From NCBI RefSeq assembly GCF_017301735.1, contig NZ_CP071090.1, positions 11,949,001-12,013,000 on the forward strand: a stretch of 64,000 bases of DNA. The letters run 5' to 3'. Position numbers and translations under genes: made by a program. Below, in pieces: positions 16,288-48,399 of the stretch (position 1 is the stretch's first letter; each line of letters opens with the position of its first letter). Below the pieces are notes generated by a model, which made no database searches, was not told the DNA's origin, and was given only the letters and a program-made list of their open reading frames with translations. This DNA is from Pyxidicoccus parkwaysis. GTDB taxonomy: Bacteria; Myxococcota; Myxococcia; Myxococcales; Myxococcaceae.

Positions 16288-16316
16288 TTGACTACGGCTG
16301 TAGTCACGCGTACCTT
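16288..16316 (+). promoter_or_regulatory. Candidate sigma-70 promoter of the BlaI/M56 operon
   Basis: The -35 element TTGACT (16288-16293), a 17-bp spacer and the -10 element TACCTT (16311-16316) lie upstream of the BlaI-type gene. The first operator overlaps the -35 region and the second covers the predicted start near 16323, which fits repression by the gene's own product. Confidence 0.55.
16289..16306. promoter_or_regulatory. BlaI/MecI-type operator 1
   Basis: TGACTACGGCTGTAGTCA is an 18-bp inverted repeat (7 of 8 pairs). Its TAC...GTA core is typical of BlaI/MecI/CopY operators. It overlaps the -35 element. Confidence 0.75.
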
Positions 16317-16322
16317 GCTTGG

Positions 16323-16340
16323 TGACTACAGTTGTCGTCA
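16323..16340. promoter_or_regulatory. BlaI/MecI-type operator 2
   Basis: TGACTACAGTTGTCGTCA is a second 18-bp inverted repeat (7 of 8 pairs) with the same left half-site. It lies 34 bp centre to centre from operator 1, at the predicted transcription start and 13 bp before the repressor ATG. Confidence 0.75.
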
Positions 16341-16353
16341 CGCGGGTGGCCGA

Positions 16354-16737
16354 ATGAAGAAGCCGGTAGGAGACCAGGAACTGGCGGTACTTCGGTACGT
16401 GGCGGAGCACGGCCCGGCCACGGTGGGTGAGGTGGCGGAGCGCTTCGGCGAGCCGCAGGGGCTGGCACGCTCCACCATCCTCACGGTGATGGAGCGGCTG
16501 CGGCTGAAGGGCTACCTGACGCGGCACAAGGTGGAGGGCGTGTTCCAGTACGCCTCGCCGGTGCCGGCGTCGGAGCTGCTGCGGGACGTGGTGGGGGACT
16601 TCGTGCAGCGGCAGCTCTCCGGTTCGCTGTCGCCGTTCGCTGCGTACCTGTCCGAGGCGGAGGACGTCACCGACGAGGAGCTGGCGCAGCTCCAGGACGT
16701 GGTGGCGCGGCTTCGCTCGAAGAAGCGGAAGGAGTAG
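16354..16737 (+). CDS. BlaI/MecI-family transcriptional repressor
   Basis: The protein is 127 residues, the family's usual size. An N-terminal winged helix covers about residues 5-70 (DQELAVLRYVAEHGPATVGEVAERF, then RSTILTVMERLRLKGYLTRHKVEGVFQY). A helical C-terminal dimerisation part contains the usual segment before the protease-sensitive region (VVGDFVQRQLSGSLSPF). It should bind the two operators immediately upstream and repress its own operon. The M56 peptidase gene begins 4 bp after its stop, the classic blaI-blaR1 arrangement, in which the peptidase lifts repression. Confidence 0.92.
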   Translation: MKKPVGDQELAVLRYVAEHGPATVGEVAERFGEPQGLARSTILTVMERLRLKGYLTRHKVEGVFQYASPVPASELLRDVVGDFVQRQLSGSLSPFAAYLSEAEDVTDEELAQLQDVVARLRSKKRKE

Positions 16738-16741
16738 CCAC

Positions 16742-19198
16742 ATGGGAACGGGCTGGCTGTCTCACGTGGGAGAGTGGGCGTCCGCGTGGCCCGCGGGGCT
16801 GTGGCGGGCCTCGTGGCAGGGCGCGCTGTGTGCCGTGCTGGCGTGGGCGCTGACGAGGACCTGGCCGAGGATGCCGGCCTCGCTGCGCGCCGGACTGTGG
16901 TGGCTGGTGGCGCTGAAGTTCGTGGTGTCACTGGGCTGGCTGCGGCCCGTGCCGCTCGCGGTGCTGCCCGCTTCGCTCGCGGCGTTGATGCCGGGGGCCG
17001 ACGCGCCGGTGGTCGCGGACCAAGCGCAGGGCGCGCGGAGTGAGGTGTCCGTCGTGGGGCCCGAGCTCCCGGTCGTGGCTCCGGAGCTGAGGCCCATGGG
17101 GCAGGTCGCCGTGGCTCGCGAGGCCACACGCACGCAAGCCGCTGGAACCCACGGCACGACGAGCCACGTTGCACCGTCTCGTGGGGACGCACGCACAGGG
17201 ACGTCTCCATCAGCCGAGTCAGACAGCCTCGCGAGCCAGCTCGCATTGTCCCGTGAGGACGCACGCACGGGGTCGGTTGCATCCGCTGAGCATCCTCTCG
17301 CGTTGTCACGCGAGGACGCACGCACGGGGGCATCCGAATCCGAGCGCGTCACCAGCGCATCGCCGCATGCGGCGGAGTCGCCGGTCATCATCGGCACGTC
17401 TCACGAGAACACGCTGCCCCCAGCCCCAGCCACCGTCAGCGTGCCCGCCACGCATTCCTCCACCACCCCGAGGCAGTCCCTTCCCTGGGGCACGGTGCTC
17501 GCGTGGACGCTCTTCATCGCGTGGACCACGGGCGTGCTGTGGCAGCTTCGGAGCCACGTGAAGGGCTGGGCCAGCATGCGCCGCCTGCGCCAGAGCGCGC
17601 GTCCCCTCGTGCACCCGGTGCTGGAGTCCGAGGTCCTGGAGCTCGCCGCCGCCGCGAAGCTGCGCCGTCCTCCGCGGCTCCTCGTGTCGGAGTCCGTGGC
17701 GAGCCCGCTGGCCACGGGACTGCTGGACCCGGTGGTGGTGCTGCCCGCGAAGGCGGTGCGGCGCCTGCCGGTGGAAGCCCTGCGCATGGCGCTCGCGCAT
17801 GAGCTGGCGCACCTGCGCCGCGGAGACCTGTGGCTCGGCTGGGTGCCGGCGCTCGCGGAGGCGCTCCTCTTCTTCCACCCGCTCGCGCGCCGGGCCGCGC
17901 GGGAATACTCGCTGGCACGAGAGGAGGCCTGTGACGCCGAGGCCCTCCGCCTCACCGGCGCCGAGCCCGCCGACTACGGCGAGCTGCTGATTGCCTTCGG
18001 TGTCGCCCGAGGCGCTGGCACCGCCGCCGCGCTGGGCGCGTCCGCCCACATTCACGCTTTGCACAGGAGGTTGAGCATGCTGGAGCACGTCGATGTCATC
18101 CCCACCCCGTCACGTCGCCTGTTGAAGGCGGCGCTCACCGTCCTCGGCCTCGCGGCCCTGGTGCCCTTCCAGGTCGTCGCGCAGGAGTCCGCAGCGAAGG
18201 ACGCGAAGCCCGCGGAGTCCTCGAAGGCGAAGCCCTCCACGGCTCCTGCCCCCGCGGCGGCCCCGGCGCCTGCTGCGTCCGCGAAGGCGGCCCCGCCCGC
18301 GACGCCTCCTGTTCCCTCCACGCCGGGCGTGGCCGGCAAGCTCGCCGTGCCTCCTCCGGCCCCCGTGGCCCCGCGCATCGCCGCCACGCCGCCCGTGCCC
18401 CCAGCTCCCGTGAAGGTGGGCGTGGTCCGTACGCTCCCCGTGCCGCCGGCTCCGCCCCCTCCGCGCATGGCCGCGGTGGCCGTGACGCCGCCCGTGCCTC
18501 CCGTCGCTCCGAGGCCTCCGCCCTTCGACGATGACGACGACGACAACAGCTACGTGCTGCTGGCGGACAACATGGCGATGATGAACGGCAGCTCGGTGGA
18601 CCTGAACCTCGCCGGCATGTTCAAGCAGCCCGGCAAGGAATTGCTCTACGTGCGCCGCAAGGGTGAGGCGTTCATCATCCGCGACCCGGCGACGCTGAAG
18701 GCCGTGCGCACCGCGCTCGAGCCCACGCAGGAGATGGGCAAGGCGCAGGGCGAGCTGGGTGGGAGGCAGGGAGAGCTGGGCGGGAAGCAGGGCGAGCTGG
18801 GCTCGAAGCAGGGAGAGCTCGGCATGAAGCAGGCCGAGCTGGGGCTGAAGCAGGCCGAGCTCGCGCACAAACAGGCCGGCCTCAACCTGGAGGAGCGGCG
18901 CATCGAAGCCCTGCCCGAGGCCGAGCAGGCGCGCCGCGAGGCGGACCTGCGCAAGCAGGAGCAGGCGCTGGAGCAGGAGGAGAAGGCCCTGGAGAAGCAG
19001 ATGGAAGCGCTGGAGGAGCAGCAGGAGGCGCTGGGCCGAGAGCAGGAGAAGCTCGGCGAGCAGCAGGAGGCGCTGGGCCGAGAGCAGGAGAAGCTCGGCG
19101 AGCAGCAGGAGGCGCTCTCCCGCGAGGCCGAGAAGAAGGTGCGGAGCCTCATCGACGAGGCGCTCCGCAAGGGCCTCGGCCAGCCGCTGCCCACCTGA
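16742..19198 (+). CDS. M56 (BlaR1-like) membrane metallopeptidase with long coiled-coil extension
   Basis: The protein is 818 residues. The N-terminal membrane segments (about residues 15-75) are followed by a linker with four copies of a SREDARTG-type motif. Another membrane segment lies near 250, then the gluzincin domain with HELAH at about 353-357 and the downstream EEACDAEAL zinc-ligand region at about 394. A further membrane segment near 465 leads to a Pro/Ala-rich stretch (about 490-590). The C-terminal 150 residues are a Gln/Glu coiled coil built from 7-residue (xGKQGEL) and 14-residue (EQQEALGREQEKLG) repeats. The beta-lactam-binding sensor domain of true BlaR1 is absent, so the inducing signal is probably something else. 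Confidence 0.88.
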   Translation: MGTGWLSHVGEWASAWPAGLWRASWQGALCAVLAWALTRTWPRMPASLRAGLWWLVALKFVVSLGWLRPVPLAVLPASLAALMPGADAPVVADQAQGARSEVSVVGPELPVVAPELRPMGQVAVAREATRTQAAGTHGTTSHVAPSRGDARTGTSPSAESDSLASQLALSREDARTGSVASAEHPLALSREDARTGASESERVTSASPHAAESPVIIGTSHENTLPPAPATVSVPATHSSTTPRQSLPWGTVLAWTLFIAWTTGVLWQLRSHVKGWASMRRLRQSARPLVHPVLESEVLELAAAAKLRRPPRLLVSESVASPLATGLLDPVVVLPAKAVRRLPVEALRMALAHELAHLRRGDLWLGWVPALAEALLFFHPLARRAAREYSLAREEACDAEALRLTGAEPADYGELLIAFGVARGAGTAAALGASAHIHALHRRLSMLEHVDVIPTPSRRLLKAALTVLGLAALVPFQVVAQESAAKDAKPAESSKAKPSTAPAPAAAPAPAASAKAAPPATPPVPSTPGVAGKLAVPPPAPVAPRIAATPPVPPAPVKVGVVRTLPVPPAPPPPRMAAVAVTPPVPPVAPRPPPFDDDDDDNSYVLLADNMAMMNGSSVDLNLAGMFKQPGKELLYVRRKGEAFIIRDPATLKAVRTALEPTQEMGKAQGELGGRQGELGGKQGELGSKQGELGMKQAELGLKQAELAHKQAGLNLEERRIEALPEAEQARREADLRKQEQALEQEEKALEKQMEALEEQQEALGREQEKLGEQQEALGREQEKLGEQQEALSREAEKKVRSLIDEALRKGLGQPLPT
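18739..19113 (+). repeat. Coiled-coil-coding tandem repeats (21-bp and 42-bp periods)
   Basis: From about 18739 to 18880 a 21-bp unit encoding a heptad (GGKQGEL, GSKQGEL, GMKQAEL, GLKQAEL) repeats six to seven times. From 19016 a 42-bp unit (EQQEALGREQEKLG) repeats about two and a half times. Both keep frame and heptad register. Confidence 0.85.
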
Positions 19199-19280: not shown

Positions 19281-20999
19281 ATGAGCCTCGCCGCCGTTCC
19301 CCCGGCCACTCCCAGCAGCACGCTCGACGCAGTGGTGCAGCGTGTGAAGGAGGGCTCGCGCGCCTGGGTGAAGCTGGGCCTGCGTGAGCGCATCGCCCTG
19401 CTGGAAACGCTGCGCCGCGCCTTCGCCGCCGTCGCCGAGCCGAGCGTCCGCGCCGCCTGCGAGGCCAAGGGCATCGACCCCGACAGCCCGCTGGCCGGCG
19501 AGGAGTGGCTGGGCGGTCCGCTGGTCGTGCTGCGCAACATGCGCCTGCTGGTGGACTCGCTGAAGGACATCGAGAAGCACGGCGTGCCGTACATCCCCGC
19601 CTCGCACCTGCGCACGCTGGAGGACGGGCGGCTCGCGGCGCGCGTCTACCCGAAGGACGCGCTGGACGGGATGCTCCTGCCGCGCAACGTGGGCGAAGTC
19701 TACTTCCTCCCCGGCGTCACCGCGTCCAACCTCCGCGAGCACCAGGCCTCGTTCTACCGCAAGCCCCACGAGGGGAAGGTCTGCGCGGTGCTGGGCGGCG
19801 GCAACGTCAACTCGATTCCGCCCGCGGACTGTCTCTACAAGCTCTTCGTCGAGGGCACCGCGTGCGTGCTCAAGATGAACCCCGTCAATGCCTACCTCGG
19901 GCCCTTCCTGGAGCAGGCCTTCGCATCGCTCGCGAAGCACGGCGTCTTCGCGGTGGTGTACGGCGGCACGGAGGAGGGCTCGGCGCTGGTGAATCACCCG
20001 CTGGTGGACGAGGTGCACGTCACCGGCAGCGACAGGACACACGACGCGCTGGTGTGGGGCCCGCCCGGCCCCGAGGCGGAGGCTCGCCGCGCGCGCAACA
20101 CGCCGCTGATGTCGAAGCCCTTCTCCAGCGAGCTGGGCAACATCTCCCCCGTGGTGGTGGTGCCGGGGCCGTACTCGGACGGCGAGCTGCGCTTCCAGGC
20201 GGACAACATCGCCGGCATGGTGGCCAACAACGCGTCCTTCAACTGCAACTCGGCCAAGCTGCTGGTGCAGCCGAAGGACTGGGCGCGTCGCACGCAGGTG
20301 ATGCAAGGCGTGCAGGACGGGCTCGGCAAGGCGGCCGTGCGCCGCGCGTACTACCCGGGCGCGGAGCAGCGCTGGAAGCAATTCACGGACGGGCGCGCGC
20401 GTCTGAGGGTGGTGGGCAGCGCGAGCGCGGGCGAGTTGCCCTATGCGCTGCTTCCGGACGTGGACCCGAACGAGGCGCAGGACCGCGTCTTCCGGCAGGA
20501 GCCGTGGTGCACGGTGCTGTCGGAGACGGGGCTGCCCGGCTCGGATGACCCGGTGGCCTTCCTGGAGAAGGTGGTGCCCTTCCTCAACGAGAAGGTGTGG
20601 GGCACCCTCAATGCTACGCTCATCGTCCACCCGAAGTCGCTCAAGGACCCGGGCGTCAACGCCGCCGTGGAGCGCGCCATCCGCGAGCTGCGCTACGGCA
20701 CGGTGGCCGTGAACACGTGGCCCGCGGCGGGGTACGCGCTCTTGTCGCTGCCGTGGGGCGGCCACCCGACGTCGTCGCCACAGGACATCCAGAGCGGCCT
20801 GGGCTGGGTGCACAACACCTTCATGCTGGAGGACATCGAGAAGGCCGTCATCCGCGCGCCGCTGACGAACCTGCCGGCGCCGCCGTGGGTGCCGGGCCAC
20901 CGGGGCATGCGCGAGCTGGCGCGCAAGCTGGTGGAGTTCGAGCTGGGGCCGTCCTGGCTGAAGGTGCCGGGCATCGCCACGGCGGCGCTGCGGCGGTAG
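19281..20999 (+). CDS. NAD(P)-dependent aldehyde dehydrogenase-superfamily protein
   Basis: The protein is 572 residues, longer than the 480-500 usual for the family. The catalytic general base lies in SSELGNISPVVV (E284) and the nucleophilic cysteine in NNASFNCNSAK (C322). The nucleotide-binding region is near 170-200 (GKVCAVLGGGNVNSIPPADCLYKLF) and 220-250 (VVYGGTEEGSALVNHPLVDEVHVTGS). It oxidises an aldehyde to the acid; the substrate is not predictable. GGAGG lies six bases before the ATG. The N-terminal 60 residues and a 30-residue insert near 255-280 are non-standard. The TPR gene follows after 83 bp. Confidence 0.92.
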   Translation: MSLAAVPPATPSSTLDAVVQRVKEGSRAWVKLGLRERIALLETLRRAFAAVAEPSVRAACEAKGIDPDSPLAGEEWLGGPLVVLRNMRLLVDSLKDIEKHGVPYIPASHLRTLEDGRLAARVYPKDALDGMLLPRNVGEVYFLPGVTASNLREHQASFYRKPHEGKVCAVLGGGNVNSIPPADCLYKLFVEGTACVLKMNPVNAYLGPFLEQAFASLAKHGVFAVVYGGTEEGSALVNHPLVDEVHVTGSDRTHDALVWGPPGPEAEARRARNTPLMSKPFSSELGNISPVVVVPGPYSDGELRFQADNIAGMVANNASFNCNSAKLLVQPKDWARRTQVMQGVQDGLGKAAVRRAYYPGAEQRWKQFTDGRARLRVVGSASAGELPYALLPDVDPNEAQDRVFRQEPWCTVLSETGLPGSDDPVAFLEKVVPFLNEKVWGTLNATLIVHPKSLKDPGVNAAVERAIRELRYGTVAVNTWPAAGYALLSLPWGGHPTSSPQDIQSGLGWVHNTFMLEDIEKAVIRAPLTNLPAPPWVPGHRGMRELARKLVEFELGPSWLKVPGIATAALRR

Positions 21000-33517: not shown

Positions 33518-33817
33518 ATGAAGGTCTACCTGGATGACGAGCGTCCCACGCCCGAGGGCTGGGTCGCGGTGCGGTGGCCCGAGGAGGCGATTTCGCTGCT
33601 CGAAGGCGGGCGGGTGACGGACCTGAGCCTGGACCACGACCTCGGGGATGACGCGCACGGCACGGGGTACGACGTCCTGCTCTGGCTGGAGGAGGCGGTG
33701 GCGACGCGGGGCTTCGTGCCTCCGCGCGTGCGTGTGCACTCGGCGAACAGCTCCGCGCGCCAGAAGATGGAATTGGCGATTGCTCGCATCGAGCGCTTCG
33801 CTCGTGAGCGGGAGTGA
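33518..33817 (+). CDS. Cyclic-phosphate-processing receiver-like (cREC) protein
   Basis: The protein is 99 residues, one domain. It carries LDDERPTPEGW near the N-terminus, SLDHDLGDDAHGTGYDVLLWLEE in the middle and the late VHSANSSARQKM. These are signatures of the small receiver-like cREC family, which has been proposed to act on cyclic phosphates or nucleotide signals. The last 19 codons form the first unit of an 86-bp tandem repeat that continues past the stop. Confidence 0.8.
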   Translation: MKVYLDDERPTPEGWVAVRWPEEAISLLEGGRVTDLSLDHDLGDDAHGTGYDVLLWLEEAVATRGFVPPRVRVHSANSSARQKMELAIARIERFARERE

Positions 33818-34030
33818 CGGTGGGTTGAGGGAAGCCTTCGGGGCGCCAGAAGATGGAATTGGCGATTGCTCGCATCGAGCGCTTCGCTCGCGAGCGGGAG
33901 TGACGGTGGGCTGAGGGAAGTCTTCGGGGCGCCAGAAGATGGAATTGGCGATTGCTGGTATCGAGCGCTTCACTCGCGAGCGGAAGTGACGGTGGGCTGA
34001 GGGAAGCCTCCGGGGCGCCAGGAGGGGAGA
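33757..34030 (+). repeat. 86-bp tandem repeat, three copies, starting inside the cREC gene
   Basis: Three copies lie at about 33757-33842, 33843-33928 and 33929-34014, and a partial fourth follows. Each carries CAGAAGATGGAATTGGCGAT (at 33761, 33847 and 33933) and most carry the GAGCG-CTT-CGCTC hairpin. Copy 1 overlaps the coding end and stop of the cREC gene; because 86 is not a multiple of 3, later copies cannot encode the same peptide in frame. Confidence 0.93.
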
Positions 34031-34081: not shown

Positions 34082-35512
34082 TCATCGCGTGCGCGGCTGG
34101 GCCTGTTGTTGTTGCTGTTGCTGTTGCTGTTGCTGCTGGGGCTGCCGCTGTTGCTGCTGCTGGGGCTGGCGGACCTGGGGTGACTGTTGGGGCTGGGGGA
34201 CGACCTGGATGCGGGTCGCGTAGCTGTCTCCGTCGGCGGCGAGGTTGAAGGCTGCTTGGACGGGAGTGCCCGGGGGAATGCTCTGCACGGAGATGCTCCG
34301 GTTGCCGCTCGTGGCGCGCGTCCTGTCGCCGACGAAGAGCGTGTAGAGGTCGCCGGATTCCGAGTCACGAAGCTGGATGCGGTCCTTCGAGGTGCCGGTG
34401 ACCTGGCCCTGCATGAGGACGCTTGCCACAACGGTGTTGTTCGGGTCCGCCGCTGGCGCCGAGCCCGCCGTGCCCGAGCCGCCCGTGCCCGTGTTGTTAT
34501 TGGAGAGGCTGGCGCGGCGCAGCGAGTCGACTTCCTGCTGGAGGTTCTCGACCTGGGAGCGGAGGCGCCTCAGTTCCTGCGCGTCAGAGGTTGTGCCCGC
34601 GCCCGCGGCGCTCGCGCTTCCGCCGCCCGCTCCGCCGGTGCCACTGCCGCCCGTTGCGCCGCCCGATGTCCCGCCACCGGTAGCACCGCCGCTAGTACCG
34701 CCACCTGTCACGCCGCCCGACGTTCCGCCACCGGTTGCGCCGCCCGATGTCCCGCCACCGGTAGCACCGCCGCTATTGCCGCCACCTGTCGCGCCGCCCG
34801 ACGTTCCGCCACCGGTTGCGCCGCCTGTTGTTCCACCTCTCGTGCCACGATTGGTGCCTGTGCTCGTCGAGCTCGGATTGGATACGCCACCGGTCCCGGT
34901 GCCAGTTGTACCCGAGCCTCCGGTGCCGCCCGTGCTGGTGCCGCTGACATTCGAGCTCGACCCGCTAGTCCCAGTGGTGGACCCGCTTGTGCCCGCGCCA
35001 CCAGTACCGCTGACATTCGAGCTCGCTCCACCAGTGCCCGCGCTGGACCCGCCAGTACCCGCGCCACCGGTACCGCTGACATTCGAGCCACCTGTGCCCG
35101 CGCCACCGGTACCGCTGACATCCGAGCCACCCGTGCCTGCGCCACCAGTGCCGCCGACACCCGAGCTACCCATGCCCTCGCCACCCGTACCGCTGACATC
35201 CGAGCCACCGGTACCGCTCGTGCCCGTGCCGCCGGTTCCGCTGGTCCCTGTCGTGCCCGTTCCTGTTGCAGTGCCCGTGCCGTCCGCCGGAGCGCCAGTC
35301 GCGCCGGAACCGCCCGTGCCTCCGGCGCCGGTGGTCGCTCCCGTGTTCGTCTCGATGCCGCCCATGCTCCCGTTTCCGCCCGCGCCACCCTGCGTACCCG
35401 CGGTCCGGTCGCTCGTATCTCCGCTCGAACCGCCGCCTGCTGATTGGGCGAGCCCCACGGTCGAGAGCAGAAAGCTGAAGGCCAGGGCAGCAGTAGCAAT
35501 CGTGCGTCGCAT
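34082..35512 (-). CDS. Exported Gly-rich repeat protein with coiled coil and poly-Gln tail
   Basis: The protein is 476 residues from ATG 35512 (AAGGA seven bases upstream). The signal peptide RRTIATAALAFSFLLSTVGLAQ leads into about 280 residues of Gly/Thr/Ser-rich sequence: 13-residue units SGTGGAGTGGS-x2 and then 9-residue units SGGATGGGT. A short coiled coil follows (about 315-345, ELRRLRSQVENLQQEVDSLRRA). A compact beta domain at about 370-440 contains VLMQGQVTGTSKDRIQLRDSESGDLYTLFVGD. The tail is Gln-rich with a run of 12 Gln. It is probably secreted or surface-located; the function is unknown. Confidence 0.8.
   Translation of the reverse strand: MRRTIATAALAFSFLLSTVGLAQSAGGGSSGDTSDRTAGTQGGAGGNGSMGGIETNTGATTGAGGTGGSGATGAPADGTGTATGTGTTGTSGTGGTGTSGTGGSDVSGTGGEGMGSSGVGGTGGAGTGGSDVSGTGGAGTGGSNVSGTGGAGTGGSSAGTGGASSNVSGTGGAGTSGSTTGTSGSSSNVSGTSTGGTGGSGTTGTGTGGVSNPSSTSTGTNRGTRGGTTGGATGGGTSGGATGGGNSGGATGGGTSGGATGGGTSGGVTGGGTSGGATGGGTSGGATGGSGTGGAGGGSASAAGAGTTSDAQELRRLRSQVENLQQEVDSLRRASLSNNNTGTGGSGTAGSAPAADPNNTVVASVLMQGQVTGTSKDRIQLRDSESGDLYTLFVGDRTRATSGNRSISVQSIPPGTPVQAAFNLAADGDSYATRIQVVPQPQQSPQVRQPQQQQQRQPQQQQQQQQQQQQAQPRTR
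34103..34138 (-). repeat. Twelve-codon CAA/CAG (poly-Gln) tract
   Basis: Thirty-six consecutive bases encode 12 Gln at the end of the Gly-rich protein, followed by AQPRTR and stop. A second Gln-rich run lies just before it. Short-period DNA like this can change length by slippage. Confidence 0.95.
34680..35230 (-). repeat. Gly-rich 27-bp and 39-bp coding repeats
   Basis: About seven 27-bp units (SGGATGGGT-type, roughly 34655-34840) and about five degenerate 39-bp units (SGTGGAGTGGSxx, roughly 34990-35230) encode the low-complexity part of the exported protein. Confidence 0.85.

Positions 35513-40995: not shown

Positions 40996-48399
<7,404 letters not shown>

Follow-up and report, generated by a model that had tools for sequence, protein, structure and literature searches.

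A BlaR1-type M56 protease with a predicted head-on-hairpin tail is encoded next to a BlaI-family repressor in soil-dwelling myxobacteria

Many bacteria pair an M56 protease with a BlaI-type repressor, and to our knowledge few of these systems have an identified signal. In BlaR1-BlaI of Staphylococcus aureus and Bacillus licheniformis, a BlaI-family repressor and an M56 protease are controlled through operators at their own promoter, according to the accessible portions of two reports (PMC9834060, PMC3305447). These portions also place a C-terminal domain past the last membrane helix of BlaR1, with a possible signal-peptidase site there (PMC9834060, PMC3305447), and give HExxH and E-x3-D motifs 41 residues apart, from H201 to E242 (PMC9834060). 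PetP-PetR of cyanobacteria pairs a BlaR1-like protease with a BlaI-like regulator outside beta-lactam resistance and controls petE and petJ by copper; the likeness is by description, from the part of the report at hand (PMC7896320). The CopY/CopR repressors belong to the BlaI DNA-binding family and use the operator RNYKACANNTGTMRNY, as excerpts of a further report give it (PMC7253601). Among the literature matches listed, with most subscription papers outside the coverage, none describes the M56-BlaI system or the tail reported here. One Corallococcus paper matched on "blai" (PMC10979478) was set aside, as its available text concerns coralinone.

We analyzed a 64,000-nucleotide stretch of the Pyxidicoccus parkwaysis genome (contig NZ_CP071090.1, positions 11,949,001 to 12,013,000), called the window, in whose coordinates the features below are given. 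The open reading frame of the M56 gene occupies exactly 16742-19198, next to a BlaI-family gene:

16354..16737, + strand: BlaI-family repressor, 127 aa; PF03965 (Penicillinase_R), E 1.2e-24
16742..19198, + strand: M56 (BlaR1-type) membrane metallopeptidase, 818 aa; PF05569 (Peptidase_M56), E 2.4e-39, residues 227-447

The first-pass annotation had called the M56 core and its BlaI partner standard, and both assignments held, with 135.7 bits against PF05569 (gathering score, 31) and 87.4 bits against PF03965 (gathering score, 22.6). The catalytic motif agrees with that of BlaR1, including its 41-residue spacing:

17798..17812, + strand: zinc site H353-E-L-A-H357; H353, E354 and H357 invariant in 16/16 orthologues
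17921..17935, + strand: E394-x-x-x-D398, motif of the third zinc ligand, 41 residues after H353; invariant in 16/16 orthologues

Unlike BlaR1, the protein has a Pro-rich stem followed by a head-plus-hairpin tail, and no transpeptidase or penicillin-binding family was found in it by the Pfam scan at E <= 1. Its match to the NCBIfam model blaR1_generic covered only profile positions 101-318 of 585 and scored 77.6 bits, the cut-off being 400. These results agree with the annotation on the missing penicillin-binding domain; its description of that domain as "replaced" takes such a domain as the default, but none was found in the five M56 paralogues of the same genome that were scanned (a sixth M56 match is weak and lay outside the scan). 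The M56 proteins of this genome and of family f7 likewise carry diverse tails on one protease core, and these tails, unlike the one studied here, are TonB_C, SLT transglycosylase, repeats or unassigned; in three f7 proteins, another repeat tail was recognized by eye. In the genomes examined, M56 proteins usually carry other tails and often lack a beta-lactam sensor, so the missing sensor is in itself unremarkable. No beta-lactamase target was recognized for the window's system, unlike BlaR1-BlaI. A sensor of beta-lactams or cell-wall antibiotics acting through an unrecognized pocket would have the family name in its favor, and in view of the profile results we consider it extremely improbable.

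The AlphaFold2 model of the full-length protein contains four membrane helices and has a mean pLDDT of 60, being poor outside the core and the tail. In the PDB it matched only six S. aureus BlaR1 chains at E <= 0.001 (best, 2.4e-6), with low TM-scores of 0.18-0.20 by query length. The membrane part was divided as follows:

16787..16936, + strand: TM1 and TM2, model helices, residues 16-40 and 46-65
16937..17479, + strand: TM2-TM3 loop, residues 66-246; hypervariable, modeled as disordered
17486..17596, + strand: TM3, model helix, residues 249-285
18110..18166, + strand: TM4, about residues 457-475; model helix 457-471, hydropathy peak 461-479
18173..18181, + strand: V478-V-A480, signal-peptidase-like -3/-1 motif at the end of TM4; Q477, V478, V479 and A480 invariant in 16/16

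A plain hydropathy scan exceeded its threshold at three places only (19-mers from residues 56, 415 and 461), backing two of the four helices: TM2 and TM4 passed, TM1 and TM3 stayed below, and one peak lies inside the protease domain. The stem is net positive, and such charge counts do not fix the membrane orientation. By analogy with BlaR1, the tail would be periplasmic. Because the protein has no recognizable penicillin-binding domain and the tail lies outside the cytoplasm by this analogy, it is likely that a signal other than a beta-lactam is sensed, as the annotation had proposed. Envelope stress, its candidate for that signal, is plausible. The annotation had overlooked the TM2-TM3 loop, which is a further long and variable segment. 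This loop measures 181 aa, against about 40 in BlaR1, and includes three SR(E/G)DARTG repeats at 17168-17342.

The region past TM4 was resolved into a stem and a separate domain of 217 residues (602-818), for which the AlphaFold2 tail model had a pLDDT of 92 and showed a small head, two long helices paired as an antiparallel coiled-coil hairpin, and a conserved strand at the C-terminus:

18182..18538, + strand: Pro/Ala-rich stem, residues 481-599, of variable length
18545..18679, + strand: tail head, beta-beta-alpha-beta-beta, residues 602-646; AlphaFold2, conserved
18686..18904, + strand: hairpin arm 1, residues 649-721; AlphaFold2 helix
18917..19168, + strand: hairpin arm 2, residues 726-809; AlphaFold2 helix
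19169..19195, + strand: C-terminus KGLGQPLPT with predicted strand 813-815; K810, G811, L812, P815, P817 and T818 invariant in 16/16

The Pro-rich segment and heptad-based coiled coil of the first-pass annotation were both borne out. The stem is 31% proline and 24% alanine; the arms contain tandem units of 21 and 42 nt within 18731-18878 and 18953-19116, and the 7-residue periodicity of LIVMF over residues 649-809 was matched by 0 of 5,000 permutations. The coiled coil is real; the head and the conserved C-terminus with its predicted strand had been missed. The Foldseek search of the tail model against solved structures gave no match at E <= 0.001. VIA-align gave Z values of up to 12.6, in rows spanning mainly the hairpin (41-211) and within the range that is uninformative for helical models. 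The head of the window's M56 protein matched no Pfam or NCBIfam model. Signs that it arose by internal duplication, as two beta-beta-alpha units, are no more than suggestive: the best register scored -0.11, where the mean was -0.83 (sd, 0.35).

Constraint on the tail is visible in its length, which is 217-219 aa in the window and in 16 loci of the genus, while the linkers (loop and stem) vary. The lengths of the two arms also covary for the most part across genera (r = 0.83-0.88 over 18 rows with three turn choices, the rows sharing descent). One clear exception is L098, where arm 2 has lost 17 residues but arm 1 just 2; smaller deviations occur in L112 (-1) and L099 (+4). Locus L012, whose contig stops within the gene, entered neither the alignments nor the operator scan, and L031 was omitted from alignments A1-A3 because it comes from the same genome as L009. 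These features bear on whether the tail is a stalk or oligomerization device, with the signal read instead by the TM2-TM3 loop, the membrane helices or a partner protein. Coiled coils are commonly spacers or oligomerizers. In BlaR1, the extracellular TM2-TM3 loop participates in signaling, as stated in the accessible text (PMC9834060). In the present protein, however, this loop is among the least conserved stretches and the tail head, arm lengths and C-terminus are conserved; the tail also occurs without a protease. We regard the stalk as rather unlikely, and the tail probably senses the state of the envelope by touching something other than penicillin.

The annotation had proposed a search for homologues with the same tail, and this search found it in 61 of 96 genomes of the window's family, with one copy in the window's own genome. 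M56 relatives with the head-on-hairpin tail are present in many soil-dwelling myxobacteria. For relatives outside Myxococcota, tblastn searches of plasmids, run with low-complexity filtering, gave no match. Similar heptad tails may occur on M56 proteins of other phyla; if so, the module would be older and more widespread than described here. Profile matches L107-L110, which have no M56 part, and tail matches in genomes G020 and G031 were taken as chance coiled-coil similarity. The phylum search also returned several Corallococcus tails whose open frames measure just 254-316 aa. These frames run to the locus edge at three loci, and eight matches lie at contig ends, adjoining the Pro-rich stem. 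They were rejected as stand-alone tails and attributed to assembly breaks, being counted among the tail-bearing genomes and left out of the stand-alone proteins. In another family, the tail domain does stand alone, near a HisKA-receiver (histidine-kinase) gene; it has a signal-peptide-like start and is apparently secreted.

A further reading, partly compatible with the one we favor, is that signal peptidase cleaves the M56 protein past TM4, so that the tail would enter the periplasm as a free protein and be the switch's main product. The invariant Q477-VVA480 at the end of TM4 may be such a cleavage site, and signal peptidase is described, in the excerpts available, as cleaving S. aureus BlaR1 within the linker past its last membrane helix. 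The stand-alone homologues with their signal-peptide-like start would also fit release, as would the finding, given below, that most tail-bearing genomes have no operator site besides their own pair. On the other hand, many membrane helices are followed by a V-x-A, and the tail is fused to the M56 protease in 14/14 complete family loci, which suggests that the link matters. We consider release quite improbable. If shedding did occur, derepression would flood the periplasm with the module, and the output of the system would be its own shed sensor. We put little credence in the wider proposal that the head-plus-hairpin is a new portable periplasmic module, serving as M56 sensor and as free secreted protein and, in the protease, shed by signal peptidase as a self-amplifying alarm. 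The domain may nevertheless be a reusable periplasmic sensing part, one that no searched library names.

Next, we examined the region upstream of blaI. A sigma-70 scan of it found no promoter; two promoter-like hexamers there, both invariant in 8/8 aligned upstream regions, were taken as the putative promoter, around which two palindromes lie:

16288..16316, + strand: predicted promoter; TTGACT 16288-16293, 17 bp, TACCTT 16311-16316
16289..16306, no strand: operator O1, TGACTACGGCTGTAGTCA, palindromic, overlapping the -35-like hexamer
16323..16340, no strand: operator O2, TGACTACAGTTGTCGTCA, palindromic, 34 bp downstream of O1

The inner 16 bases of O2 fit the published CopY-type operator exactly and O1 departs at one base, as judged by eye; the pattern scan used a looser form, which also matched in the window at 43068-43083. 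The pair, with a spacing of 33-35 bp, was present at 31/31 loci scanned, at least two genomes being counted twice; at L011, O2 has two mismatches. BlaI presumably binds O1 and O2. In 13.2 Mb of the window's own genome, GACTACNNNTGTAGTC at <= 1 mismatch occurred at the two own-promoter sites and at one other place, contig position 11737128 (in L153), between two ORFs and with no second site listed nearby. The genome has one clear operator pair, at the system's own promoter. At <= two mismatches there was no enrichment (18 matches per strand versus 39 and 35 in the reversed control). One two-mismatch site, at 423694, starts 76 bases before a BlaI match at 423770, so that a similar site may serve this BlaI paralogue.

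The resemblance to the operator of the copper repressor CopY and the precedent of PetP-PetR, for which copper sensing by the protease has been proposed, are compatible with a protease that itself senses, for example, a metal, with the tail tuning localization. CopY differs in being itself the copper sensor, and the window's BlaI fell below the cut-off of the CopY equivalog TIGR02698 (33 versus 121.95 bits). A metal-sensing protease leaves the conserved tail without explanation, and the Pfam scan of three neighbor genes showed no metal gene (one encodes an aldehyde dehydrogenase; the other two had no Pfam match). We therefore think metal sensing very unlikely.

Across 59 family genomes, all 27 with the tail have the operator pair at the locus and 22 of these have no other site, so that in most genomes the operon itself is the sole predicted target, a point against the account favored below; 27 of the 32 genomes without the tail have no operator site. 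Extra single sites were seen in genomes G081, G095, G103 and G143, and sites also occur in G100, G151, G168 and G173. The pair in G173 precedes a blaI-M56 locus interrupted by a contig end. In Corallococcus (genus group g13), a second operator pair lies before an unannotated ORF for a small membrane protein in 13/16 genomes.

The account we favor, and hold to be fairly probable, is a one-component proteolytic switch that regulates itself and operates in the manner of BlaR1-BlaI, with its signal read by another kind of periplasmic domain. Bound at O1 and O2 across the promoter, BlaI would repress its own gene and that of the protease. The latter would span the membrane with four helices, with a cytoplasmic zinc-protease site and, on a flexible Pro-rich stem, the 217-residue head-on-hairpin in the periplasm. 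A change in the contacts of this domain, whose partner would most likely be an envelope protein or linked to peptidoglycan, would move the helices and turn the protease on; BlaI would then be removed and the switch's own level would rise. In Corallococcus, removal of BlaI would also raise the small membrane protein. The scheme builds on the gene order, the catalytic motif, the conserved operator pair and the tail domain with its constraints, as established from sequences and predicted models; we infer the membrane topology, the periplasmic location of the tail, the binding of BlaI at both operators, its cleavage and the kind of signal. Given the defined candidate sensor domain, the predicted operators and, in Corallococcus, one predicted outside target, a simple promoter reporter in a laboratory myxobacterium could be used to look for the signal.

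The aldehyde-dehydrogenase gene downstream of the M56 gene (19281-20999) is present at 14/16 genus loci and also at L012, L104, L105, L114 and L115. It was not found at L038, L039, L146, L151, L098-L103, L106 and L111-L113, where the available downstream sequence was often short, and it was set aside as an operon partner. In genome G006, the M56 gene has been lost at the BlaI-M56 position, and the system is therefore dispensable.

The open reading frame at 16742-19198 was real and in frame, and the window corresponds to positions 11949001-12013000 of a single 13.2-Mb contig. As the first-pass annotation had claimed, the product has an M56 core and a BlaI partner: Peptidase_M56 was matched at residues 227-447, and Penicillinase_R was matched on the preceding gene (16354-16737). 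The zinc motifs H353-E-x-x-H357 and E394-x3-D398 were invariant in all 16 orthologues, and their 41-residue spacing equals that from H201 to E242 of S. aureus BlaR1 (PMC9834060). The full-length AlphaFold2 model was weak overall (mean pLDDT, 60), with helices at 16-40, 46-65, 249-285, and 457-471 and with unstructured, low-confidence linkers at 66-246 and about 472-599. Its only PDB matches at E <= 0.001 were six S. aureus BlaR1 chains (TM-scores of 0.18-0.20 by query length and 0.27-0.52 by target length). In a plain hydropathy scan, the threshold of 1.5 was passed only by 19-mers starting at 56, 415, and 461; thus, the putative topology of four membrane helices rests on the model and the BlaR1 analogy. 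The TM2-TM3 loop contains three SR(E/G)DARTG repeats (17168-17342), which by eye are absent from most orthologues; a 20-nt core from one repeat had 3 matches in the window versus 0.10 expected.

The penicillin-binding domain had been described as replaced, and the NCBIfam BlaR1 model was indeed matched only in part (profile 101-318 of 585, with a score far under the cut-off). The lack itself is ordinary, however, because no such domain was found in the five M56 paralogues scanned, one of which carried TonB_C and one SLT. Two M56 proteins with other tails were as follows.
L059:1131-2744, tail an SLT transglycosylase domain, same genome as the window
L058:1153-3489, tail long and made up of repeated 'GV.p.yv.el...G' units (by eye)
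The L058 tail showed no Pfam match at E <= 0.001.

Residues 602-818 form a separate unit. When the tail was modeled alone from 16 sequences (mean pLDDT, 92.1; pTM, 0.65), the following elements were predicted, in tail numbering.
2-7 and 10-14, strands 1 and 2
17-25, head helix
33-38 and 41-45, strands 3 and 4
48-120, hairpin helix 1, followed by a turn
125-208, hairpin helix 2
212-214, last strand
The earlier description as a coiled-coil tail therefore held for the two long helices but was incomplete, since this model adds a head of four strands and one helix and a last strand. The tail was 217-219 aa long in 16 loci and the window (L031 and L009 being from the same genome), although its coding sequence holds 21-nt repeat runs able to gain or lose units easily. 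In contrast, the Pro/Ala-rich stem and the TM2-TM3 loop varied widely in length and sequence. Together with the nearly fixed C terminus KGLGQPLPT, this argues for a folded domain kept at a constant length. The head of the window's tail was covered by no Pfam model; the five models listed at E <= 1 all lay in the arms (residues 54-206), below cut-off. For other tail members, 25 of 163 matching families were listed, without positions. Among six named records returned, the closest by tail sequence was from Pyxidicoccus caerfyrddinensis (89% identity).

If the two helices pack antiparallel, the arm lengths are expected to change together. Counted between D47 and the turn for arm 1 and between the turn and G210 for arm 2, in 18 tails of several genera, they covaried (r = 0.88, 0.87, and 0.83 for three turn choices), a descriptive value because the 18 rows share descent. 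About one heptad was lost per arm in L113 and L103, and the arms of L100 and L101 were longer by 13 and 11 residues. L098 was a counterexample, with arm 2 shorter by 17 and arm 1 by 2; arm differences in L099 and L112 were -1 and +4.

A profile built from the 18 tails was searched against 195 Myxococcota genomes (E <= 1e-7). Homologues with the same tail were found in 61 genomes of the window's family, for which the family-level search covered 96 genomes. The 66 matching genomes also included three of another family, f7, and two (G020 and G031) which were rejected as coiled coil only. The 20 loci examined comprised 14 M56 fusions, two with separate tail proteins, and four others taken as chance coiled coils. 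At L096, two free tail proteins stand in a row behind a HisKA and receiver gene, and the start of the second, MVPMLLAVLVCGAFS, looks by eye like a signal peptide. At L097, a HisKA-receiver gene is on the same strand as the free tail protein, which runs into the contig end. G194 held two similar pairs of profile matches. The three f7 genomes do hold M56 proteins; the three read (L200, L201, and L203) end in repeats of another kind, in which 'GDYE' units are seen by eye. Thus, the head-plus-hairpin module is portable.

The region before blaI contains two palindromes, the predicted operators, at a probable promoter.
16289-16306, O1, palindrome over TTGACT
16323-16340, O2, palindrome after TACCTT
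Both were nearly invariant in 8 aligned upstream regions, and the pair, at 33-35 bp spacing, was present in 31 of 31 loci scanned (up to 3 mismatches allowed in each site and up to 4 in both together; L009/L031 and L011/L105 are from the same genomes, and L012, where the contig ends, was left out). Compared by eye with the CopY-type operator RNYKACANNTGTMRNY published in PMC7253601, O2 fits and O1 deviates at one base. At <= 1 mismatch to GACTACNNNTGTAGTC, the window's own genome held only O1, O2, and one other place. Sites at <= 1 mismatch to the 18-base form occurred in 32 of 59 family genomes, against 0 or 1 site per genome for a reversed control pattern. All 27 tail-bearing genomes among the 59 had the pair at the locus; 22 had no further site, three (G095, G103, and G143) had one more, and G075 and G081 had a second pair. 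No site was found in 27 of the 32 genomes without the tail, the exceptions being G006, G173, G100, G151, and G168. On the window's contig, a two-mismatch operator-like site lies at 423694, just before a paralogous BlaI gene at 423770 (L060 region).

The second pair in G075 and G081 directly precedes an unannotated small membrane-protein ORF, roughly 90 aa long, in which a single hydrophobic stretch is visible by eye.
L148 2931-3256, small ORF behind the second pair
L147 2327-2681 (complement), small ORF behind the second pair
This ORF was present in 13 of 96 family genomes, all within the Corallococcus group (13 of its 16 members), and had no match in the window's own genome. The operator pair was beside it in 13/13 genomes (14 loci), mostly with one mismatch in one site. 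The ORF was longer in G097, and the G127 match was flagged with two stop codons, yet its frame is open at the locus. In G006, the pair survives at the syntenic place (L146 2606-2656), blaI resembles its relatives only over roughly the first nine codons, and an M56 gene was not found there. This leftover shows the system to be dispensable.

For BlaR1 (PMC7593790, PMC9834060), an outside event activates the cytoplasmic protease and BlaI is removed. By analogy, an outside event would activate the M56 protease, which would remove BlaI, and loss of BlaI would derepress the operon and amplify the switch. The signal is most likely received by the tail, which is conserved and of fixed length, and the flexible stem would let this tail reach away from the membrane. 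At a helix rise of 0.15 nm per residue, 73 helical residues correspond to about 11 nm. Our best guess is that the tail contacts a partner in the envelope. A BlaR1-like protease with a role other than beta-lactam resistance has a precedent in PetP-PetR (PMC7896320). Within the libraries searched and among the papers listed, three features seem to be novel: the head-plus-hairpin module, the occurrence of this module as a free protein in another family, and the link between the operator and the small protein.

Another gene starts 83 bases past the M56 gene; of 16 genus loci, 14 have the two side by side.
19281-20999, aldehyde-dehydrogenase-family gene (PF00171)
Elsewhere in the window, a 276-nt unit is repeated in 13.5 tandem copies at 41643-45381, a pattern that may resemble the HAMP-domain arrays of sensor kinases. 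An 86-nt unit is repeated 3.1 times at 33757-34021, and several tandem arrays with units of 15-81 nt lie at 34632-35209.
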